Part shown: positions 12,561-24,620 of the stretch, piece after piece
Layout of the letters: the number at the start of each line of letters is the position of its first letter
Numbering within the stretch: position 1 is the first letter of the stretch
Virus record (IMG/VR): IMGVR_UViG_3300031706_000042
Location: 1-24,620 of that record
DNA length: 24,620 nucleotides
Source of the DNA: a virus
Strand: one strand, 5' to 3'
The notes under the pieces: generated by a model
Told to the model about the DNA's origin: nothing
What the model saw: the letters and a program-made list of their open reading frames with translations, nothing else
Database searches by the model: none
Position numbers and translations under genes: made by a program

Positions 12561-13042
12561 TGTATGTGTATTTTGAGAAAGAAACTAGAAATATACTGTC
12601 AATAACAAATGCCCTAAATGAGAATTTAGAAAACTTTGTAGTAAAGGACAAAGAAGAAGTTAAAGATTTTATTTCAGGCGCAAAGAACTTTGCACACTAT
12701 GTTATAGATAAAGATTTTAACATAACAGAAATTAACACTAACACTACATCTTTTAACATAAATGAAGTATTGCATCATATTGTATCACAAGAAGATCCTG
12801 ACCTAACAGTTATTCATGATAGCAAATGGGCGTTCTCTATGCAAAAACCTGTTAGCGGAAATTTATTTTTTGCAGTTACAGAAAAACATAATCCGAACAA
12901 ATTAATTAGAACAATAGCAATTCCAGCATCAAGTTTAGATTGCGAAATAGAGTTTAAATATGCAAGTGAACACAACATTAATAATATAAGCATTTGGATA
13001 CTACATAAAACGTTTCCGGTATGTTCGTTGGAGGTAAAATGA
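12560..13042 (+). CDS. Unknown protein, 160 aa
   Basis: I do not recognise this family. The protein starts with a beta-hairpin-like YVYFEKETRNILSITN, has an acidic helical segment (KDKEEVKDFISGAKNFAH), and a C-terminal half rich in alternating hydrophobic residues, for example LFFAVTEKHNPNKLIRTIAI. There is no signal peptide, membrane segment or cysteine cluster. A strong GAGGAGG site lies before the ATG, and the start overlaps the previous stop by one base (TAATG). The stop overlaps the next gene's start as ATGA, so it belongs to the same translationally coupled string of glycan genes. A structural or accessory role in that pathway is a guess from position only. Confidence 0.6.
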   Translation: MYVYFEKETRNILSITNALNENLENFVVKDKEEVKDFISGAKNFAHYVIDKDFNITEINTNTTSFNINEVLHHIVSQEDPDLTVIHDSKWAFSMQKPVSGNLFFAVTEKHNPNKLIRTIAIPASSLDCEIEFKYASEHNINNISIWILHKTFPVCSLEVK

Positions 13043-15693
13043 GCCAAGAATTTAAAGTATACGACTATGATATAATTTATTTAAGTTACGACGAACCAAA
13101 CGCAGAAGAAAACTATTATCATCTAAAGCAAAACATTCCTTGGGCAAAACGTGTGCATGGTGTAGAAGGCAGTGATGCTGCTCACAAAGCATGTGCTAAT
13201 ATTGCAGAAACTGAAAGATTTATAACTATTGACGGCGACAATAAAGTCGATCCTAAGTTTGTAAATGAAGTTTTGCAGTTTGCAGATGACGTAGATTTAA
13301 GTAAGTGCGTGGTTAGTTGGAGTGGTTATAATATGATCAACGGACTAACATACGGAAATGGCGGAATTAAATGTTGGCCGACTGATCTTGTAAAAACAAT
13401 GCGCACACACGAAAATGCTGATCCTAACAATCCACATGCACAAGTTGACTTTTGTTGGGACTTAGAATACTTACAAGTTGACAAAACTTACAGCTATGTT
13501 TACAATAATGCAACTCCGCATCAGGCTTGGAGGGCAGGTTTCCGCGAAGGTGTTAAGATGAGTTTGCTTGAAGGCATACCTGCTAGTAAAGATAAGTTTT
13601 GCGAGCAGGTGCCTAAGAAAAACTTTGATAGGTTAAAAATTTGGTGTACAGCAGGTGCCGATGTTAAAAACGGTCTATGGGCAATTTATGGAGCTCGCGA
13701 AGGCCTTTATAAAACAATGTGTACAGACTGGGACCATGTTAATGTAAGAGACTTTGAGCATTTAAACGACCTATGGAATGATAAAGTACAAGATGAAAGC
13801 GACCTATTAGAAGCAATTGAAGATTACGGTGAGCGACTATTAGTAGAACTAGATATGCCAATTCCTATAGACCCACTTAGCAAAGAACAAAGCAAGTTTT
13901 TTAAAGGTGTTTACTTGCCGCCGCAACGTACTCCGCAAACATTTCTTACAAACAAAGATACAGCAGAATATGACATTGTGATGATAAGTTACAAAGAACC
14001 TAATGCAGAAGAAAACTTTGATAAACTTAAAAGACGGTTTCCACGGGCCAAACGTGTACATGGAGTTAAAGGAATTCATCAAGCACATATTGAAGCAGCA
14101 AAATTATGCACTACTGATCTAATTTGGATTGTAGATGCAGATGCCGATGTACTTGATAGTTTTAACTTTGATTACAAGTCGCCCGATAAAGAAAAAAATT
14201 ATGTAAAAGTATGGCGTAGTATAAATCCTATTAACAATTTAGAATATGGGTATGGCGGCGTTAAGCTATTCCCTCGTGAAGCAACATTAAATATGGATAC
14301 TACTAGGGCTGATATGACTACAAGTATTAGTAGACATTTTAAACCTATAAAGGTAGTAAGTAATATTACAGCATTTAACACAGATGCGTATAGCGCATGG
14401 AAGGGTGCATTTAGAGAATGTGCAAAATTAAGTAGTAAGGTAATTGACAGACAAAAGGAGGATGAGACAAATGAAAGACTTGAAATTTGGACAACGGTGG
14501 GAAAAGACAAACCGTTCGGCGAATACTGTATTAACGGTGCTCGTGCTGGCATGGAGTTTGGTTTATCTGATGGCGCTGATCTTAAATTAATAAACGATTT
14601 TGATTGGTTAGAACAACAGTTTAATAATCAAACTGTAGACAAAGATACTCTTACAGCAAGCCCCAAAGTATCAAATAATGATATTAAAGACTTATTAGAT
14701 AGATTTGAACTCTTATATGGCGGCGACATAGAAAATGTTAGACGTTTTTATAATGATAAAGATTTGTCTAGCATATTTAAATTAACAGAAAATGAAGAAT
14801 TAAGAAAAGCAGTAGTTGAAAAAAATCTACACAGTATTTTTAGACTCTCTAACACCGACGATGACTTACGCAAAGCAGTACTTGAACAGAACTTGCATAG
14901 TGTTTTTAGATTAGTAGGCGGAGAAGAAGATCTGCGCAAGGCCGTATTAGATAATAACTTATACAGCCTTGCAAGGATTATGCCAGAAGTATCAGATGAA
15001 TTTAAAATTGTAAATAATAATGATTTTTATGCCCTGTGGAAAGTGTTAGAAAAGTATACAAATAGTTCTTATATAAAACCGTTAAAGGCACTATACAATG
15101 ATACAACCTTTGACACTGATAGTTTTAGTAGAGGACAACTAGAAAGCAAAAAGTGGTTAGTCGACACTGTTAAAGATCTTAATTTAATATTAGGTAATAT
15201 ATTCTTGTGTGCAGGATGGTATGCAACTGTAATACCTATGTTACAAGATAATGAAATATCATTTAATAATGTTCGAAGTTTTGATTTAGATCCTAATGTT
15301 TGGAAAACAGCAGAGATTTTTAATAAAGCACTTACGTCTGATGGTTGGAAATTTAAAGCACAAACGCTTGACATTCAACTTTTAAAATATGACGGATTTG
15401 AATTTGAAACTATTAAAAGTAATGGTAACATAGAAGTTATAAAAGATAGTGCAAATACAATTATTAATACAAGTTGTGAACACATAGAAAATTTTACAGA
15501 CTGGTATGCAAAAATACCAAATGGTAAATTAGTTATACTACAAAGCAACAACTTTTTTGAAGTTGACGAACATGTAAACTGTGTGAATGATATTGACGAA
15601 TTTAAAGAGATGGCACCTATGACTGAGTTACATTATATGGGCTCTAAAGATATGACTAAGTACACAAGATTTATGTTGATTGGAATAAAATGA
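13039..15693 (+). CDS. Fusion: two GT-A-like domains, helical repeats, methyltransferase
   Basis: I place the start at the ATG at 13039 (884 aa), not at the in-frame ATG at 13021. The former has GGAGG at 13030-13034 and forms an ATGA overlap with the previous stop. Two homologous domains come first. Copy 1 (from about residue 10) has YLSYDEPNAEENY, AKRVHGVEG and DGD at 65-67. Copy 2 (from about 311) has MISYKEPNAEENF, AKRVHGVKG and DAD at 366-368. Both continue with a GYGG or GNGG motif and a C-terminal AGAREG-like helix. Residues 576-661 are four short repeats. The last 180 residues resemble a class I SAM methyltransferase: GNIFLCAGWYATV (from 719), acidic FDLDP (748-752), INTSCEHIENF (from 809). 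I infer a glycan-building and methylating enzyme. Similar domains occur in marine T4-like phages. Confidence 0.65.
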   Translation: MSQEFKVYDYDIIYLSYDEPNAEENYYHLKQNIPWAKRVHGVEGSDAAHKACANIAETERFITIDGDNKVDPKFVNEVLQFADDVDLSKCVVSWSGYNMINGLTYGNGGIKCWPTDLVKTMRTHENADPNNPHAQVDFCWDLEYLQVDKTYSYVYNNATPHQAWRAGFREGVKMSLLEGIPASKDKFCEQVPKKNFDRLKIWCTAGADVKNGLWAIYGAREGLYKTMCTDWDHVNVRDFEHLNDLWNDKVQDESDLLEAIEDYGERLLVELDMPIPIDPLSKEQSKFFKGVYLPPQRTPQTFLTNKDTAEYDIVMISYKEPNAEENFDKLKRRFPRAKRVHGVKGIHQAHIEAAKLCTTDLIWIVDADADVLDSFNFDYKSPDKEKNYVKVWRSINPINNLEYGYGGVKLFPREATLNMDTTRADMTTSISRHFKPIKVVSNITAFNTDAYSAWKGAFRECAKLSSKVIDRQKEDETNERLEIWTTVGKDKPFGEYCINGARAGMEFGLSDGADLKLINDFDWLEQQFNNQTVDKDTLTASPKVSNNDIKDLLDRFELLYGGDIENVRRFYNDKDLSSIFKLTENEELRKAVVEKNLHSIFRLSNTDDDLRKAVLEQNLHSVFRLVGGEEDLRKAVLDNNLYSLARIMPEVSDEFKIVNNNDFYALWKVLEKYTNSSYIKPLKALYNDTTFDTDSFSRGQLESKKWLVDTVKDLNLILGNIFLCAGWYATVIPMLQDNEISFNNVRSFDLDPNVWKTAEIFNKALTSDGWKFKAQTLDIQLLKYDGFEFETIKSNGNIEVIKDSANTIINTSCEHIENFTDWYAKIPNGKLVILQSNNFFEVDEHVNCVNDIDEFKEMAPMTELHYMGSKDMTKYTRFMLIGIK
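14764..15021 (+). repeat. Four tandem 21-22-residue repeats within the fusion protein
   Basis: The units begin LSSIFKLTENEELRKAV, LHSIFRLSNTDDDLRKAV, LHSVFRLVGGEEDLRKAV and LYSLARIMPEVSDEFKIV. The first three are close copies (L-x-S-[IV]-F-[KR]-L, an acidic tetrad, LRKAV[VL][ED]xN); the fourth is degenerate. Each looks like a pair of short helices. They separate the glycosyltransferase-like part from the methyltransferase-like part and may act as a spacer or a binding solenoid. Confidence 0.7.
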
Positions 15694-16790
15694 AAATAGG
15701 GTTTATTGGTCTAGGTAAGTTAGGATTACCGTGTGCTGAAGTAATTGCTAAAAATGGCCATGTAGTATTAGGATACGATATAACACCGGTTAAGAGCAAC
15801 TACGTCATAGTTGAAGATTCTATCAAAGAAACTGTTACACCAGCAGACATAGTTTTTGTTGCTGTTCCTACTCCGCACGATCCTGCATATGACGGCAAGG
15901 CACCTACTTCACATTTACAGCCTAAAGACTTTGATTATAGTATTGTAAAAGATGTACTTGTGGAAGCAAACAAACATATGACAAATAATCAAATGATTGT
16001 ATTAATTAGTACAGTATTACCAGGTACAGTACGTAGAGAATTTGCACCACTAGTAACTAATACTAGATTTGTTTACAATCCATATTTAATTGCTATGGGC
16101 ACAGTTGCATGGGATATGGTCAATCCTGAAATGATTATGATTGGCACAGACGATGGTAGCGAAACAGGTGATGCAAAACAACTTGTAGATTTTTATAAAA
16201 CAATAATGGAAAACAATCCTCGCTACGTAATTGGCACCTGGGACGAATGCGAGTGTATTAAAGTTTTCTATAATACATTTATAAGCACTAAAATTGCCCT
16301 TGTAAACATGATACAAGACGTAGCAGTGCAACAGGGTAACATTAACGTAGACGTTGTTACAGACGCTTTGTCGCAAGCTACACAGCGTATTATAAGTCCG
16401 GCGTATATGACAGCAGGGATGGGAGATGGTGGCGGATGTCATCCTAGAGATAATATTGCTCTGCGTTTTCTAGCAGAGAAGCTAGATTTAGGATACGACA
16501 TGTTTGACGCAATAATGATAGCAAGAGAACAACAAGCACGGAACATGGCTATTGAAATTTTAAAACACGGCAATCGGATACAGTTTAGTAGCGACAGTTA
16601 TAAACCGGGTGTTGAATATACTGACGGTAGTTACAGTCTATTAGTGCAACATTATGTAAAAGAACTTGGCGGACAGATTGTTGATAGCAACCCGTTGGTG
16701 TATGTTTTAGTTCATCCAACTTGCAGGCCAATAAATAATGTATATAACTTCGATCCATGGAACAACTACGGAGTAAAGTATGAAACTTAG
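15690..16790 (+). CDS. UDP-glucose/GDP-mannose 6-dehydrogenase family, divergent
   Basis: The family oxidises the C6 hydroxyl of a nucleotide sugar to a carboxylate with two NAD+. The Rossmann motif is at the N-terminus (GFIGLGKLGLPCAEVIAKNG, residues 4-23, and Asp30 as the likely adenosine ribose contact). STVLPGT gives Thr108. The central helix has Lys191 and Asn195 in KVFYN. The catalytic loop GGGCHPRD has Cys250 and Asp254. These match the usual Thr, Lys, Asn, Cys and Asp of the family. The segment normally written NPEFLREG reads NPYLIAMGT (130-138), so both glutamates are replaced. The length of 366 aa is below the usual 400 or more, with a short C-terminal domain. The start overlaps the upstream stop as ATGA. 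The family call is strong, the substrate uncertain. Confidence 0.8.
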   Translation: MKIGFIGLGKLGLPCAEVIAKNGHVVLGYDITPVKSNYVIVEDSIKETVTPADIVFVAVPTPHDPAYDGKAPTSHLQPKDFDYSIVKDVLVEANKHMTNNQMIVLISTVLPGTVRREFAPLVTNTRFVYNPYLIAMGTVAWDMVNPEMIMIGTDDGSETGDAKQLVDFYKTIMENNPRYVIGTWDECECIKVFYNTFISTKIALVNMIQDVAVQQGNINVDVVTDALSQATQRIISPAYMTAGMGDGGGCHPRDNIALRFLAEKLDLGYDMFDAIMIAREQQARNMAIEILKHGNRIQFSSDSYKPGVEYTDGSYSLLVQHYVKELGGQIVDSNPLVYVLVHPTCRPINNVYNFDPWNNYGVKYET

Positions 16791-18029: not shown

Positions 18030-18456
18030 AGGAACTATTATAGTAGTTGATGCCTGGAAGCATTGTGAAAGACCTGATATAAGACGCTTTCCGTACATTG
18101 AACAGGAAGCAAAATTATTTGGTAGCTTTTTAAATCTACGTTTAAAAAATTTAAGATCAAGCTATACGATTGTGCATTGTGCAGACGGTAGAGAGACAAT
18201 GGACGAAATTAATACTTGGGAAGATATAGTAATCAATAAGATACACGAAACTCCGGATACCGGCGGCCCATACTACTTTTGTGGGTTTCATCTCGGACGC
18301 TGCATAGATAGAAAATATAACGAACTAGGCAGAACTTCACATATTATTGTAAATTTAAGTTTACTTTATCCTGGAGATGAGTATTATAAGATTGACAAAA
18401 CTAAAAATATGTGTTATAATACATATAGAGGTATGGAAAAATGCAGTATGATTTAA
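18022..18456 (+). CDS. Small protein with isochorismatase-like features, 144 aa
   Basis: The N-terminal strand TIIVVDAWKHC puts Asp10 where isochorismatase-like cysteine hydrolases have their catalytic Asp. The segment YYFCGFHLGRCID puts Cys94 where they have the nucleophile. A basic residue near 73 could be the Lys, but this is not certain. At 144 aa it is shorter than the usual 180-220 aa. Cysteines at 15, 53, 87, 94, 134 and 141 are numerous for this window outside the radical SAM genes. AAGGAAT is the ribosome binding site, and the start overlaps the previous stop by eight bases (ATGAATAA). The 3' end contains the consensus promoter at 18392-18420 and overlaps the next gene by sixteen bases. 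The family call is tentative, and hydrolase activity is unproven. Confidence 0.45.
   Translation: MNKGTIIVVDAWKHCERPDIRRFPYIEQEAKLFGSFLNLRLKNLRSSYTIVHCADGRETMDEINTWEDIVINKIHETPDTGGPYYFCGFHLGRCIDRKYNELGRTSHIIVNLSLLYPGDEYYKIDKTKNMCYNTYRGMEKCSMI
18392..18420 (+). promoter_or_regulatory. Full-consensus sigma70 promoter with extended -10
   Basis: TTGACA (18392-18397) and TATAAT (18415-18420) are separated by exactly 17 bases, and the -10 box is preceded by TGT, which makes an extended -10. The site lies within the last codons of the 144-aa gene, 20 bases before the ATG of the SGNH-like gene. Transcription would start near 18427, just at the AGAGGT ribosome binding site, so the leader is almost absent. 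The same layout is seen at 10640. Confidence 0.8.
18407..18426 (+). promoter_or_regulatory. Palindrome centred on the -10 box
   Basis: ATATGT (18407-18412) and ACATAT (18421-18426) form a perfect inverted repeat around the TATAAT box. In RNA the stem extends by a G-U and a U-A pair to eight pairs with a UAUA loop. It may be a repressor operator or a read-through hairpin. Unlike the one at 10648 it ends just before the ribosome binding site and does not contain it. It lies in coding sequence, so chance is possible. Confidence 0.45.
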
Positions 18457-19196
18457 TTAATTTAGGCGGTGGAAACGGTACTGGCGGAAATGCCTCCGGC
18501 ACAACAATTAACTTTCCAAGTTCGTCTGACCAAAAGATGTGGCAAAAACTAAAACGTCGAAAGGGTAAGAATTGGAAATATGCGAATCTTAGAAACGATC
18601 CTATAAAATTTACACATAATACTATGGGATACAGAACGCATGAATTTGACTTTGACAACGATGACGAATACATTATCCACATTGGGTGCAGTAATACATA
18701 CGGATTATACTTACATGAATCTGAACGTGCTTCGAATCTTATAGAAAAGAATTTAGATATAAAAACCTACAATTTAGGACAATGCGGCGGCAGTCCAAAT
18801 TATATTATGATGAATATAGCTAACCTATTATATAATGCATCAAAACGACCAAAGGCAGTAGTTATACAATGGCCAAAATCTATGAGACTAAATCTTCCGT
18901 ACACACATCCTAAAAGTGCTGTGATGCGTATACGCCCTACTGAAAATCAAAAGGGATTTGAATCCTTTATACGAGACGAAATTAACCCTTTAGAAACACA
19001 TTCTAAATGGTGCCACCAGCACACTTTAAATTTATTAAATAGTTTTGATATTACTGCTATTGAATATTGCGTAGATCACGAATCTAATTTGTACGGCACA
19101 ACTGAAATTGAACGACTAGATGTAGCATATGATAATAAACATATAGGCGCATTAACTAATGAAAGCATTTTTAACTATGTTAAGGAACAGTTATAG
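18441..19196 (+). CDS. SGNH/GDSL-like hydrolase or acyltransferase
   Basis: A Gly/Asn-rich N-terminal tail is followed at about residue 78 by IIHIGCSNTYGLYLHES. This fits block I of SGNH hydrolases, with Ser84 in GCSNTYG as nucleophile. NLGQCGGSPNYIMMNI fits the next blocks (Gly and Asn of the oxyanion hole). Near the C-terminus DNKHIGALTN supplies Asp231 and His234 as the DxxH part of the triad. The family cleaves or transfers ester-linked groups, often acetyl groups on sugars. Here it would add or remove an ester on a glycan; this is inferred from the neighbours. AGAGGT serves as ribosome binding site. It is the first gene after the promoter at 18392, and its stop overlaps the next start (TAGTG). 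Confidence 0.6.
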   Translation: MQYDLINLGGGNGTGGNASGTTINFPSSSDQKMWQKLKRRKGKNWKYANLRNDPIKFTHNTMGYRTHEFDFDNDDEYIIHIGCSNTYGLYLHESERASNLIEKNLDIKTYNLGQCGGSPNYIMMNIANLLYNASKRPKAVVIQWPKSMRLNLPYTHPKSAVMRIRPTENQKGFESFIRDEINPLETHSKWCHQHTLNLLNSFDITAIEYCVDHESNLYGTTEIERLDVAYDNKHIGALTNESIFNYVKEQL

Positions 19197-20260
19197 TGTA
19201 TAACTATGCCGATATAAGATCAATTCATCTTGAAGTAACACAAAACTGTCAAGCTAGTTGCCCTATGTGCGATCGCAACATGAATGGTAAAGGTATTAAT
19301 CCTCACATTAATTTAGATGAACTTAGTTTAGAAGATTGTAAAACGATATTCCTTCCAGAGTTTATTGCACAGCTAAACACAATGTTTATGTGCGGCAACT
19401 TGGGTGATCCTATTGTAGCACGAGATACATTAGAAATATTCAAATACTTTAGAGAGCATAACCCTAAGATGTGGTTAAGTATGAATACAAATGCAGGAGC
19501 AAAAAGTGTTGCTTGGTGGAAAGAGCTTGCACTAGTAATTAATAAAAAAGGTGCAGTTATATTCAGCGTAGACGGATTGCGTGATACCAATCATCTTTAT
19601 CGCCAAGGAGTAAACTGGGACAATGTAGAGCGCAACATGCAAGCGTTTATTAATGCCGGAGGCAGAGCACGTTGGGACTTCTTAATATTTGAACACAATC
19701 AACACCAAGTAGAAGAAGCAGAAGAACTTGCAACGTCTTGGGGTTGCGAAAAGTTTATGAAGAAAAAAACTGGACGATTCATCACCCAAGATTCAAAGAA
19801 GAAAGAATCTCATCAATCTCAGGACCGTAAAGGTAATAACTCTGCTGAACTTAAAAAACCAGATGCAAAGTATGTTAACAACGCACTTAGTAAGCAAGAA
19901 GTAATTATCAACAAGTACGGTACTATGGATGCTTACTATGATGCGGCACCTATCATTTGTAAAGTAAAGAAAGATAATAGCTTATTCATAACAGCAGAGG
20001 GCCTAGCGATGCCGTGTTGTTGGACTGCTGGACGTATGTATAAATGGTGGCACAAGGATCCTAAAGTAGAACAGATATGGGACTTTATTGATAAAGACGC
20101 CCTTGATGCACGTAACGGCTTAGAACAAGTATTTGCTACAGGTGCATTTGACAGAATACAAAACAGCTGGAATAAACCTAGTTGCAGTGACGGAAAACTT
20201 AAAGTGTGCGCTATGAAATGTGGCGCCGAGTTTGATCCTTTTGCAGAACAATTCAAATAA
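19196..20260 (+). CDS. Radical SAM enzyme with C-terminal auxiliary-cluster domain (1)
   Basis: The start is GTG overlapping the previous stop as TAGTG, with AAGGAA upstream. Near the N-terminus Cys18, Cys22 and Cys25 form the CxxxCxxC motif that binds the SAM-cleaving 4Fe-4S cluster. MFMCGNLGDPI is the following beta2 region, and FSVDGL and HNQHQ mark later strands. A basic linker (about 195-250) leads to a C-terminal set Cys255, Cys274, Cys275, Cys330, Cys338 and Cys342. This resembles the twitch or SPASM type of auxiliary Fe-S site. Such enzymes generate the 5'-deoxyadenosyl radical for oxidation, epimerisation or cross-linking of peptides and sugars. The substrate here is unknown; glycan genes next door suggest a sugar. 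It is the first of four paralogues in a row and is intact at 354 aa. Confidence 0.8.
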   Translation: MYNYADIRSIHLEVTQNCQASCPMCDRNMNGKGINPHINLDELSLEDCKTIFLPEFIAQLNTMFMCGNLGDPIVARDTLEIFKYFREHNPKMWLSMNTNAGAKSVAWWKELALVINKKGAVIFSVDGLRDTNHLYRQGVNWDNVERNMQAFINAGGRARWDFLIFEHNQHQVEEAEELATSWGCEKFMKKKTGRFITQDSKKKESHQSQDRKGNNSAELKKPDAKYVNNALSKQEVIINKYGTMDAYYDAAPIICKVKKDNSLFITAEGLAMPCCWTAGRMYKWWHKDPKVEQIWDFIDKDALDARNGLEQVFATGAFDRIQNSWNKPSCSDGKLKVCAMKCGAEFDPFAEQFK

Positions 20261-20271
20261 GTAGATATGCA

Positions 20272-21303
20272 ATGAATATAGATAATATTAAAAAAATAGA
20301 ACTTGAAATAACAAGTAATTGTAATGCAGCCTGTCCGGGGTGTGCAAGAACACAAAATATAGACTTATTTGATGTTGAAAGTTTTTATCTAGAAGATCTA
20401 AAACGATTATTTCCTACAGAAAGATATATTGCTAATAAGCAATTTAAATTTTGCGGAGTTCTCGGCGACCCGGCACTAAACAAAGACGCCGTGCTTATGA
20501 CAGAATATCTTACTAATTCCGGAGGATATTGTCAATGGAGCACAAATGGTGCATACCAAACAGCAGACTGGTGGAGCAAATTAGGACAAATTAGCAAAGA
20601 TACTAATCTAGTTGACGTTAGTTTTTGCGTAGATGGACACAAAGAAACTAATCATATCTATAGAGTTAGTACTAAGTGGAATGTACTTGAGCGAAATATG
20701 CAAGCATATAGTGATGCAGGAGGCAAGGCAACTTGGATCTTTATTGTATTTGACCACAACGAATATGAACTAGAGGCTGCAAGAGAACATGCAAAACGTT
20801 TAGGATTTACTTTTGCAACACGCACAGGAATGCGTAATAGCTATCATGATTGGGTAGCATTAATTGGTAAAAAGAATCAGCAAGAAAAGAAAGTTATAAC
20901 AACTACTGGTAAAAAAGAACACAGTAAAAAAGCACAAGTTGAACAGTTAGATAAAATTATTTTAGAAAATAAAGTCGACGAAAAAATTATCAACACCATC
21001 AAATGTAAACTAATACACGAAGGTGAAATATTCATTAGTGCAAAACAAGAACTTTGGCCTTGTTGTTTTCTATGGGATAGCGCATTTAAAAATAAGGAAA
21101 ACATACTTGATAAACTCAGTGAATATCAAACAGGTTGGAATAGTTTAAAGACAAACAGTATCGAAGACGTGTTAGTACATCCTTGGTTTGATAAAGTGTT
21201 AAGTGACAGCTGGGATCCTACACACAGCAAGCATATTACACGTTGTATCAGAACTTGTGCGTACAACAAGGCATATCAAAATGAAATAAAGGTAGAAGCA
21301 TAA
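20272..21303 (+). CDS. Radical SAM enzyme with C-terminal auxiliary-cluster domain (2)
   Basis: Cys17, Cys21 and Cys24 (SNCNAACPGCAR) form the radical SAM cluster motif. FCGVLGDPAL, FCVDGHKETNHIYR and FDHNEYE match the corresponding lines of the other copies. The C-terminal cysteines are Cys245, Cys264-265 and Cys325/Cys329 (CIRTC), with the same 19-residue step from the single Cys to the Cys pair as in copies 1 and 3. A Lys-rich linker (about 203-240) separates core and auxiliary domain. It starts eleven bases after copy 1 without a clear ribosome binding site, so re-initiation or coupling is likely. It ends directly before copy 3. The reaction is unknown. At 343 aa it appears intact. Confidence 0.8.
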   Translation: MNIDNIKKIELEITSNCNAACPGCARTQNIDLFDVESFYLEDLKRLFPTERYIANKQFKFCGVLGDPALNKDAVLMTEYLTNSGGYCQWSTNGAYQTADWWSKLGQISKDTNLVDVSFCVDGHKETNHIYRVSTKWNVLERNMQAYSDAGGKATWIFIVFDHNEYELEAAREHAKRLGFTFATRTGMRNSYHDWVALIGKKNQQEKKVITTTGKKEHSKKAQVEQLDKIILENKVDEKIINTIKCKLIHEGEIFISAKQELWPCCFLWDSAFKNKENILDKLSEYQTGWNSLKTNSIEDVLVHPWFDKVLSDSWDPTHSKHITRCIRTCAYNKAYQNEIKVEA

Positions 21304-22260
21304 ATGAGCTGGTCTAGTGAAACATTAGAATGGATTGATATTGAATTAACTAGTTTTTGCAACATTAAATGCAAAGGGTGTTTTCGAGTTATATCTAAAG
21401 AAGCAGATAAAATATTAAACAAATCCTATATAGACATTGATGTAATACGTAAACGTTTTCAAAAAGAAATGTTTCCTAGTATAAAGATTATTAATTTTTG
21501 TGGCAGTGTTGACGAGCCATGTAGTCATCCGCAATTTTTTGAAATTATAAAACATTTTGCTGATTGGGATTGTCACATTAATATTGCCACTAATGGTAGT
21601 TTGCGCACAGTAAAATGGTGGACAGAACTAGCTAGTATACTTCCTAGAAGTCATAAAGTAGTTTGGGGCATTGATGGTAGCGACGAGTTGTCAGAAGAGT
21701 ATAGAGAAGGTAGTAGTTTTAAGAAAGTACAACAGAACTACAGAGCATTTATAGCAGCAGGCGGCAGAGCTAATTGGCAATTTATTAGTTTTGAACATAA
21801 TGAACATCAGTTAGAAACAGCAAGACAGATAGCAAAAGACGAAGGCTTTATAGAGTTTAAAACTATTATAAGCCACAGAAAAGATTCAGGAGGCGTAAAA
21901 CATAAAAAAGTTGAAGCCCAAGAGTCGCCGTGTATTAGTTGTAAGTATTCTAACCAAAAACGTATTTTTGTAAATCATATGGGCAATGTTATACCATGTT
22001 GTCATTTGAATAGTAAGATGTTAGAATTTGCAGTAAATCCTAAACAAAAAGACCGTTTCGAAGAAATATTAGTTAAGCAGGATTATATGAATGATATTAA
22101 TCTTGCAAATGTTTCTTTAGATGAAGCAATGAATGGAAAAGTTTGGACAGAGATACAAAACAGTTGGACGGGTGATGATCGGATCGGCAAGTGTGTAAGC
22201 ACATGTAAGGAAAATAATCGAGATATTTTTATTAAAGAACAGTTGGGAGTTAAAAGATGA
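21304..22260 (+). CDS. Radical SAM enzyme with C-terminal auxiliary-cluster domain (3)
   Basis: The ATG directly follows the previous TAA. Cys19, Cys23 and Cys26 (SFCNIKCKGCFR) are the radical SAM motif. FCGSVDEPCSHP, WGIDGSDELSEEYR and FEHNEHQ match the pattern of the other copies. The auxiliary set is Cys210/Cys213 (CISCK), Cys232-233 and Cys297/Cys301 (CVSTC). The extra Cys210 is specific to this copy. It is the shortest at 318 aa and diverges from the others around DELSEEYR, where they read DTNHxYR. Its stop overlaps the following lyase-like gene by four bases (ATGA), so the two products are likely made together. Substrate unknown. Confidence 0.8.
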   Translation: MSWSSETLEWIDIELTSFCNIKCKGCFRVISKEADKILNKSYIDIDVIRKRFQKEMFPSIKIINFCGSVDEPCSHPQFFEIIKHFADWDCHINIATNGSLRTVKWWTELASILPRSHKVVWGIDGSDELSEEYREGSSFKKVQQNYRAFIAAGGRANWQFISFEHNEHQLETARQIAKDEGFIEFKTIISHRKDSGGVKHKKVEAQESPCISCKYSNQKRIFVNHMGNVIPCCHLNSKMLEFAVNPKQKDRFEEILVKQDYMNDINLANVSLDEAMNGKVWTEIQNSWTGDDRIGKCVSTCKENNRDIFIKEQLGVKR

Positions 22261-22805
22261 AATTTAGTGCTAGTTGTGGTGGTATACATTCTGTAGTAGG
22301 CAATGACTATACTTTTAAGGACGCAAGGGGCAAGTGCCCAGGAGATAGCGATCCTTTCTACGACCGTGATACAGGAGAACAACGTTGGGCTTATAAAGAA
22401 CGCAACGAAGCAAAAAGCCCACTACTACATCCTGGCAAGTATGAATTCCAGGCAGATGTTAGTATACACGCTGACAAAGTTCGTCATGCAGAATGGTACA
22501 GCATATTTCAAATACACAACGGTGTCCGCGACGGAATACCGCCTAGTATGTTTACGGTATTTCAGCATGGAAGATGGCATATTGATGGTCGAGATACTCA
22601 TGTAACTCCAAAACTAGAATTTGCTCTTAAAGTAAATTTAGAAATTAAGGAAAATTTTATTACTGTTGATTATTACGTTGATGAAGAATACCTGGGGTCG
22701 TCTAGAACGTACGAATTAGCACAACCTTTTATAAAATTTGGATTATACAGAATAAACGAATATTGTTCAGCAACACAAATATATAAAAATGTAAGAGTTA
22801 ATTAA
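22257..22805 (+). CDS. Jelly-roll polysaccharide-lyase-like protein
   Basis: The 182-aa protein looks like a small concanavalin-type beta-sandwich. KYEFQADVSIHAD is an opening strand pair, WYSIFQIHNGVRDG (from about residue 80) recalls the QxHG strand of heparin-lyase- and alginate-lyase-type enzymes, and FIKFGLYRINE (158-168) matches their KxGxYR strand, followed by TQIYKNVRV as the last strand. Those families cleave uronic-acid polysaccharides by beta-elimination or serve as sugar-binding modules. I could not fix the catalytic residues, so a lectin role is equally possible. No signal peptide is visible. GGGAG precedes the ATG, which overlaps the stop of radical SAM copy 3. The stop touches the start of copy 4. 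A uronate link to the dehydrogenase at 15690 is an inference. Confidence 0.5.
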   Translation: MKFSASCGGIHSVVGNDYTFKDARGKCPGDSDPFYDRDTGEQRWAYKERNEAKSPLLHPGKYEFQADVSIHADKVRHAEWYSIFQIHNGVRDGIPPSMFTVFQHGRWHIDGRDTHVTPKLEFALKVNLEIKENFITVDYYVDEEYLGSSRTYELAQPFIKFGLYRINEYCSATQIYKNVRVN

Positions 22806-23840
22806 ATGAGTTGGCCGATAGAAGCAAAAAATGTTAAAAAGATACAAATAGAAATCTCAAATTATTGTAATGCACGTTGTCCACAGTGTGCAAGAGAATT
22901 AATATTTGACGGTAAAGTACAACCTAAACATATAGGTATAAATGATAACTTTATAACACTTGAACAATTTAAGAGTTGGTTTGACAAAGATAACTGGGAG
23001 AATTTATTTTTGTTAGACTTTTGTGGAAGTTATGATGAACCTACAACTAATCCAGACCTAATAAAAATTGTAAAATGGATAATGAGTTACAAAGGATTTA
23101 ATAACTATCTCAAAGTAAACATTTCTACAAATGGCGGAACAAGAAACAAAGAGTTTTGGAAAGAGCTTGCTGAGATTGGCAGTGCTAACCTTTCACCTGA
23201 AGGTACTAAACGGATACAAGTAAATTGGGGTATTGATGGACTTGAAGATACCAACCATATTTACAGAGTAAATGTTAAATGGGATAAGTTGCAAGAAAAC
23301 TTTAGAACATTTATTAAACATGGAGGCCGTGCTTGGTGGCAGTTTATATATTTCAGTCATAATGAACATCAAGACCAAGAAGCAAAACAGCGTAGTATAG
23401 ACGAAGGATTTGAAGGTATCAAATGGCGAGGCTCCAAAGGGCGTGATGCTATAGAAAAAGTAAAACAAGCATCAACACCTAAGTTCCAATTAGAAAATGA
23501 AAAACCTGCAACCAAAATTCAATGTAAAGCACTAAGTAGACCTAACTATTTTGGTTTAGATACAGGATTGTATGTTACAAATAGAGGAACAGTTTTGCCG
23601 TGTTGTTGGGTAGGCACTGAAACAGAAATGCAAAATTTATATGATAAACACGGATACAAATATAATATTTTAGATAATGTATTGAGTGGCAAAAATAGTT
23701 TCCAAGAAATTTTAGATAGTCCGTGGTATAACGGTTTACATGCTATGATTCTAAAAGAAACATGGAGACCTTGCACTAGACACTGCAAAGAAAATGTAAT
23801 AAGTACCATTAATAATGAATTACACCCTAACAAGGAATAA
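22806..23840 (+). CDS. Radical SAM enzyme with C-terminal auxiliary-cluster domain (4)
   Basis: The ATG directly follows TAA, as in copy 3, and both proteins begin MSW. Cys21, Cys25 and Cys28 (NYCNARCPQCAR) form the radical SAM motif. FCGSYDEPTTNPD, WGIDGLEDTNHIYR and FSHNEHQ are the family lines. The C-terminal set is Cys240, Cys266-267 and Cys323/Cys327 (CTRHC); here the step from single Cys to Cys pair is 26 residues, not 19. A small extra loop (NLSPEGTKR) precedes the WGIDG strand. At 344 aa it appears intact. It lies eleven bases before the fifth radical SAM gene. Reaction and substrate are unknown. Confidence 0.8.
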   Translation: MSWPIEAKNVKKIQIEISNYCNARCPQCARELIFDGKVQPKHIGINDNFITLEQFKSWFDKDNWENLFLLDFCGSYDEPTTNPDLIKIVKWIMSYKGFNNYLKVNISTNGGTRNKEFWKELAEIGSANLSPEGTKRIQVNWGIDGLEDTNHIYRVNVKWDKLQENFRTFIKHGGRAWWQFIYFSHNEHQDQEAKQRSIDEGFEGIKWRGSKGRDAIEKVKQASTPKFQLENEKPATKIQCKALSRPNYFGLDTGLYVTNRGTVLPCCWVGTETEMQNLYDKHGYKYNILDNVLSGKNSFQEILDSPWYNGLHAMILKETWRPCTRHCKENVISTINNELHPNKE

Positions 23841-23851
23841 GTACGTATATA

Positions 23852-24620
23852 ATGACAGATAAAACAAATAAATATCCATCAGACACATTTTGTTTATTAC
23901 CGTGGGTGCATCTAAGCACTAGACCCGACGGTAGTATGCGAGTATGCTGTACTGCAAATGCTAGTAGTGTTGGAGCTACTAATGACAAAGAACACGGAGG
24001 CCAAGTTGGCATTCTTAAAACCGATGACGGTAAGCCTAACAATTTAAATGTTAGTGACTTTGAGTCAGCTTGGAATAGTACATATATGAAAAATGTACGT
24101 ATGCAGATGCTCGCCGGAGAAAAGCCACCTAGCTGTTTAAAATGTTATAAAGAAGAAGCAGCCGGGCACCGAAGTAAACGTATGTGGGAAACAGATTATT
24201 GGGGCAAGCGAGTTGATCTTGATAAAATACTTTCTGATACACAACCTGACGGCGAAGTGCCGCCTAACTTAGCATACATTGATCTACGTTTTGGTACCAA
24301 ATGTCAATTAGCGTGTGTTATGTGTAGCCCACATGATAGTAGTGGCTGGATCAAGGATTATAAAAAGATCTTTCCTGAAGTAAAAAACGAATCCCTAAAA
24401 GAGATTATGCAATGGAAAGACAAAGGCAGCACCAATGGTAGTAGCTACAACTGGCATAAACAAAACCCTACGTTTTGGAAACAGTTTTACGAGCAAATGC
24501 CTAGTATGCAACAGATATATTTTGCTGGCGGCGAAAGTCTTATCATTGAAGAACACTATGAGATACTTGAACATGCTATTAAGATGGGCTATGCAAAAGA
24601 CTTAGAACTACGTTATAACT
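23852..24620 (+). CDS. Twitch-domain radical SAM protein, 5' part
   Basis: The gene runs off the right edge with 256 codons visible. It begins with a cysteine set Cys14 (FCLLPWVHLSTRPDG), Cys32-33 (VCCTANAS) and Cys95/Cys98 (CLKC). The radical SAM motif comes only afterwards, at Cys151, Cys155 and Cys158 (KCQLACVMCSPHDSSG), and FAGGESLIIEEH follows as the GGE-type line. The auxiliary part is thus N-terminal, the reverse order of the four genes before it. I recall this as a known family, the twitch-domain-containing radical SAM proteins, common in marine T4-like phages. Its reaction is not known to me. A TATAAT string overlaps the start codon but has no -35 partner, so no promoter is claimed. 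Confidence 0.8.
   Translation, partial: MTDKTNKYPSDTFCLLPWVHLSTRPDGSMRVCCTANASSVGATNDKEHGGQVGILKTDDGKPNNLNVSDFESAWNSTYMKNVRMQMLAGEKPPSCLKCYKEEAAGHRSKRMWETDYWGKRVDLDKILSDTQPDGEVPPNLAYIDLRFGTKCQLACVMCSPHDSSGWIKDYKKIFPEVKNESLKEIMQWKDKGSTNGSSYNWHKQNPTFWKQFYEQMPSMQQIYFAGGESLIIEEHYEILEHAIKMGYAKDLELRYN

Follow-up and report, generated by a model that had tools for sequence, protein, structure and literature searches.

The window, by which we mean the whole 24,620-nucleotide stretch of marine phage DNA analysed here, carries a row of four radical SAM genes with a further gene lodged between the third and fourth copies (Table 1). Its reading frame is open throughout and encodes 182 residues. The ATG and the TGA that ends radical SAM copy 3 together form the sequence ATGA, a 4-base overlap of the two genes, and the TAA is followed at once by the ATG of copy 4, so that the read coordinates bear out the coupling to copy 3 and the abutment on copy 4 described in the initial annotation. 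Both distinct relatives of the gene retain the ATGA overlap, which is thus present in 3 of 3 distinct members.

Table 1. Coordinates of the lyase-like gene, its candidate active-site codons and neighbouring features in the window
Feature	Position	Strand	Remark
UDP-glucose dehydrogenase gene	15690..16790	+	context; in none of the three gene-bearing relatives
Radical SAM copy 1	19196..20260	+	context
Radical SAM copy 2	20272..21303	+	context
Radical SAM copy 3	21304..22260	+	directly upstream of lyase-like gene
Overlap (ATGA) of start codon and radical SAM copy 3 stop codon	22257..22260	+	
Lyase-like beta-sandwich gene (predicted fold)	22257..22805	+	182 aa, no evident signal peptide
R49-N50-E51 codons (PL7 R-x-E)	22401..22409	+	
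Q85-I86-H87 codons (PL7 Q-x-H)	22509..22517	+	
K160-F-G162-L-Y164 codons (PL7 K-x-G-x-Y)	22734..22748	+	
Radical SAM copy 4	22806..23840	+	directly downstream of lyase-like gene

Copy 4 scores above the cut-off of the Pfam Radical_SAM family and copies 1-3 score below it. A further gene starts at 23852 and stays open to the end of the window, and direct reading of its translation reveals a CxxxCxxC motif. Upstream of the array, the gene at 13021-15693 has a weak glycosyltransferase match in Pfam (E 0.003, below the cut-off), and the other upstream genes are without a clear family; we take some of the upstream reading frames to be tail genes. The gene immediately preceding the radical SAM row (18441-19196) has a weak match to DUF6473 (E 1.4e-4, below the cut-off).

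Relatives, genomic slot and selection

Relatives were gathered by scanning with radical SAM copy 3, which returned 27 loci, and with copy 4, which added L030 to give 28 records (L029 is the same contig as L023 and hence no extra record). The lyase-like gene was found in 3 of these 28 related phage records by tblastn of the loci and profile search of the whole records. The L023 protein is 56% identical to the window protein and those of L021 and L022, whose DNA is the same, are 41% identical to it, leaving three distinct family sequences (window, L023 and L021). Viral contigs, searched with the window protein, the alignment, each relative and a DNA pattern, yielded no further distinct member, and no member was found in genome contigs including GTDB or, by tblastn, in phage and plasmid collections; the contig scans rely on short near-exact peptides and may therefore miss distant members.

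All family members sit directly behind radical SAM copy 3. Judged from the DNA at hand, copy 4 comes after copy 3 in 6 of 27 records (L017, L018, L019, L021, L022 and L023), and the lyase-like gene is confined to 3 of these 6, with no copy in the 21 others. In L019 the slot is filled by a PP-loop gene (QueC / NAD synthase-like) instead of the lyase-like gene, and in L021 such a gene comes after it. PP-loop ATPase-like genes lie by or between radical SAM genes at L019:10954-11613, L021:11511-12182 and L030:1123-1914, with matches to QueC, NAD synthase and ATP_bind_3.

The number of nonsynonymous changes per site was lower than that of synonymous changes in 3 of 3 pairs of family members (dN/dS of 0.348/0.966, 0.566/1.525 and 0.566/1.191), corresponding to ratios of about 0.36, 0.37 and 0.48 that are only rough because dS, at about 1 or more, is near saturation. 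Between the window and L023, the neighbouring genes give 0.11 (copy 3), 0.04 (copy 2) and 0.23 (copy 4). Judged from these comparisons of sequence, the gene is under purifying selection, yet it is the least constrained of the genes compared. The presence of two distinct relatives in the same slot and the excess of dS over dN in all three comparisons indicate that 22257-22805 is a real gene rather than a chance reading frame.

Between the window and L023, the DNA of copy 4 is 97% identical, versus 67% for the adjacent lyase-like gene. Along the alignment of the two copies (window 22806-23840 and L023:11499-12533), identity drops to about 67-80% on both flanks, with edges near the gene ends. From this sequence pattern, copy 4 is a gene-sized cassette of recent exchange.

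The initial annotation had singled out a pairing of a uronate lyase with a C6-oxidising dehydrogenase. This pairing does not extend to the relatives, as 0 of 3 gene-bearing relatives carry a UDP-glucose dehydrogenase. The dehydrogenase was also considered as an obligate partner and rejected, since neither a close nor a distant copy occurs in the three gene-bearing records (fragments of 30, 60 and 84 kb), an absence that is weak evidence because all records are fragments. Besides the window, 3 of the 28 records (G007, G019 and G026) have a close copy, all three without the lyase-like family, and G012 and G013 hold a distant member of the dehydrogenase family (27% identity).

Predicted fold and active-site residues

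AlphaFold2 models were computed from the three sequences for the window protein (pLDDT 78.6, pTM 0.79) and for the L021 relative (pLDDT 76.8, pTM 0.78). Both are all-beta, as expected for the beta-sandwich on which the initial annotation had staked its reading. The top VIA-align match of the window model is the PL18 alginate lyase 4q8k (Z 14.9, rmsd 2.4, 157 aligned residues), followed by 1j1t (14.8), ECA2234 (3mep; 14.5) and PL7 entries (14.5 or less), and, lower, by the GH16 enzyme VvEG16 (13.9), PRYSPRY (13.5), an ulvan lyase (13.4) and the glucuronan lyase 2zzj (13.1); rows within 1 Z were counted as tied. The non-lyase jelly-rolls ECA2234, VvEG16 and PRYSPRY thus come close to the lyases in score, which weighs against the lyase reading. 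The L021 model likewise retrieves 4q8k (Z 13.6, rmsd 3.4, 157 aligned residues) and 1j1t (also 13.6), with PL7 entries next after PL18 (13.5 and below), and alginate lyases fill the first 17 of its best 50 VIA-align rows. The likeness to uronate lyases proposed from the sequence is therefore recovered in the predicted fold, with PL18 and PL7 alginate lyases as the best solved matches and the ulvan and glucuronan lyases further down the list.

Foldseek ranks the yeast protein 3o12, a match that is unexplained, first for the window model and an alginate lyase second; for the L021 model it puts the PL7 enzyme 5zqi first and also retrieves 2zzj, presumably a PL20 enzyme, with an E-value of 1.1e-5. 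The first match in a viral structure library is named alginate lyase (Hyperionvirus). No row named PL13 or PL14 appears among the VIA-align and Foldseek matches listed, which excludes neither family, and a literature search for the residues of heparinase I came up empty.

Galectin-8, CBM66 and other binding domains are also among the Foldseek matches listed, and the fold alone is thus no proof of function. They lend weight to a carbohydrate-binding beta-sandwich without catalysis, a lectin-like protein that would present an acidic glycan to the neighbouring enzymes or sit on the virion, as do the position of the gene within an island of tail and glycosyltransferase-like genes and its fast sequence divergence. 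We nevertheless consider this rather unlikely, given that VIA-align places lyases above binding domains for both models and that the full set of lyase residues described below is kept in the three sequences. The small uncharacterised proteins 3o12 and 3mep and glycoside hydrolases also match and would fit another chemistry on the same fold, exerted by an enzyme or scaffold that acts, for example, on a radical SAM product such as a modified sugar nucleotide or peptide. The PP-loop ATPase genes found at this slot in L019 and L021 agree with such a role, but what is conserved is a set of lyase residues and we hold it to be improbable.

The PL7 motifs are given as RXEXR, QXH and YXKAGXYXQ, with His acting as proton acceptor and Tyr as donor, in the sections of PMC8618178 consulted. 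The residues mutated in the PL7 structures 2zaa (H191N/Y284F) and 2zab (Y284F) correspond to the His of Q-x-H and to the Tyr of K-A-G-x-Y. The window protein has R-x-E, Q-x-H and K-x-G-x-Y in the PL7 order, and all are invariant in the three sequences. Comparison with the strict motifs shows that (i) Q-x-H is present with its catalytic-type His as Q85-I-H87 in 3 of 3 sequences; (ii) R49-N-E51 of R-x-E-x-R is kept, with K, K and T in place of the final R; and (iii) K160, G162 and Y164 of Y-x-K-A-G-x-Y-x-Q are kept, with A replaced by F, the final Q by I or M, and F, F and Y at the position of the first Y. The Gln-His-Tyr set that the initial annotation proposed to look for is accordingly present as Q85, H87 and Y164, together with R49-x-E51.

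A relaxed pattern (R.E, Q.H, [YF].K.G.Y), which was defined after the protein had been seen, picks out all three distinct family members and 8 of the 9 PL7-type sequences. It matches 0 of the 676 remaining reading frames (of 687 of at least 120 aa) and 16 of 300,000 shuffled versions of the window protein. The PL7-type sequence missed (L047) is without Q-x-H. Six PL7 pattern matches were found in viral contigs, two of which (L040 and L041) were excluded as cut-off ends.

We aligned the three family members with 8 PL7 sequences and L055, leaving out L047, using MAFFT in three modes, all of which placed the seven residues of the three members in PL7 columns. When each query was aligned to PL7 on its own, 5 of 7 residues fell in column for the window protein, 7 of 7 for L023 and 5 of 7 for L021; 126 unrelated reading frames reached at most 4, and 5 was reached by 2 of 100 shuffles. 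All seven residues belong to the 56 invariant positions of 182 (chance 2e-4).

The window model places the seven residues on strands 47-53, 80-87 and 158-166. The QIHNG and KFGLYR strands picked out in the initial annotation are found there, with Q85-I-H87 on strand 80-87 and K160-R165 on strand 158-166. Confidence near R49 is no more than moderate (block means of 63 in the window model and 57 in the L021 model), and the L021 model puts R48 immediately ahead of its strand, in a part of low confidence. The location of the conserved residues on three predicted strands agrees in part with the clustered polar groove that was anticipated.

Proposed function

The residues kept and the predicted fold suggest that the protein is probably a divergent, minimal PL7/PL18-like lyase that is catalytic, and 22257-22805 a real, rare and fast-diverging gene for a probable minimal uronate lyase, its product probably cutting or editing a sugar chain during infection. 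The explanation we favour on balance is that this minimal lyase is made in the cytosol and cleaves a uronic-type acidic sugar by beta-elimination. The putative enzyme would act on a 4-O-linked uronic acid or on an acidic sugar of similar chemistry; R49 with Q85 would hold and neutralise the C5 carboxylate, roles that we assume for these two residues, H87 would accept the C5 proton and Y164 would protonate the leaving group. The enzyme would be likely to target an acidic glycan, located on the host surface or the virion and built or remodelled by the island of glycosyltransferase and radical SAM genes, and the putative lyase may trim this glycan inside the cell or be freed at lysis.

The absence of a signal peptide noted in the initial annotation agrees with a crude hydrophobicity check, in which the highest mean over 12 residues close to the N-terminus is 1.13 for the window protein versus 2.55 for the lipoprotein-like lyase encoded at L055 in the related record G007. 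This L055 protein (L055:1387-2214) comprises 275 aa, matches PF14099 with an E-value of 3.9e-16 and is encoded between an AAA-type ATPase-like reading frame and another reading frame, about 20 kb from the radical SAM genes of the same record. Its lipoprotein-like N-terminus indicates that exported lyase-like proteins exist in this phage group and, along with the tail genes upstream in the window, is consistent with the same lyase serving as a virion or lysis depolymerase that would clear host or bystander surface glycan instead of editing sugars within the cell. We regard this place of action as possible, if on the unlikely side, because the window protein has neither an evident signal peptide nor a fused tail-fibre domain and the coupling of its gene to radical SAM copy 3 is present in 3 of 3 distinct members; its likelihood overlaps with that of the cytosolic lyase, as both are lyases that differ in where they act.

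A more specific proposal, which we put forward tentatively and consider unlikely, is that the intracellular phage uronate lyase works in one pathway with the radical SAM enzymes as an exchangeable glycan-editing cassette, in which glycosyltransferases and radical SAM modifiers would build or rewrite an acidic glycan and the dedicated lyase would cut it to length. If active, the protein would be an enzyme of the alginate-lyase fold, small and divergent, and would offer a handle on the target of marine-phage radical SAM arrays, since the lyase substrate would name the glycan. Whether islands of this kind edit the surface sugars of host or virion in the course of infection would thereby become testable.

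Comparison with known systems

The gene set of the window island resembles the host recognition cluster of pelagimyophages, described in the parts of PMC7029224 consulted as combining tail fibres, glycosyltransferases, UDP-glucose 6-dehydrogenase and radical SAM cassettes, and we infer that the phage belongs to a pelagimyophage-type group. The window island differs in its lyase-like gene, as the word 'lyase' does not occur in the main text of that paper. Among titles on pelagiphage lyases and phage PL7, none reports such a gene, and no literature joining SAR11, phage, radical SAM and polysaccharide lyase was found, both within searches of incomplete coverage.

Among annotated phages, the radical SAM proteins match three Campylobacter phage records and Pelagibacter phage Mosig (24-27% identity), and the first large reading frame of the window has no match. 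Campylobacter phage CP220 (70690-78497) has five annotated radical SAM genes in a similar row, accompanied by a possible amidinotransferase gene and one resembling nucleotide-diphospho-sugar transferases; two unnamed reading frames of this array, read by eye, are both without the lyase motif set.

PF14099 (Polysacc_lyase) is the sole Pfam match of the window protein (residues 76-116, E 0.0085, 16.4 bits versus a cut-off of 29.9) and is absent from the two relatives in the Pfam search. The R-x-E, Q and G-x-Y columns are common to the window protein and the PF14099 member L055, which, unlike the window protein, has K for the His of Q-x-H (hence Q-x-K), A for Lys and a lipoprotein-like N-terminus. 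The PL18 alginate lyases (4q8k aly-SJ02 and 1j1t) are the best structural match of both models, with 17-18% identity over about 155 residues. The likeness lies in the predicted fold; PL18 is described as using Tyr/Tyr and not His/Tyr in the sections of PMC8618178 consulted.

The PL7 family profile (PF08787) is matched neither by the window protein nor by its family, hhalign against PL7 gave nothing significant in local or global mode, PDB searches with the protein and the alignment returned nothing beyond weak matches to unrelated proteins (E of 0.64 at best), and PHROGs and NCBIfam contain no match for the window protein. The hhalign result, the PF14099 score below its cut-off, the lack of PF08787 and the partial agreement with the strict motifs are the reasons why we do not file the gene as PL7, even though its residues and predicted fold suggest that the product most likely works like a PL7 enzyme. 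Compared with the PL7 alginate and glucuronan lyases (2cws/2zaa A1-II', 1vav PA1167, 5zqi AlgAT5 and 7nde), the window protein departs in the second R, the A and the last Q of the motifs, in its length of 182 aa without an evident signal peptide and in a profile likeness that is not significant, whereas it resembles them in its predicted fold, in the order of R-x-E, Q-x-H and K-x-G-x-Y and in the positions of the catalytic His and Tyr.
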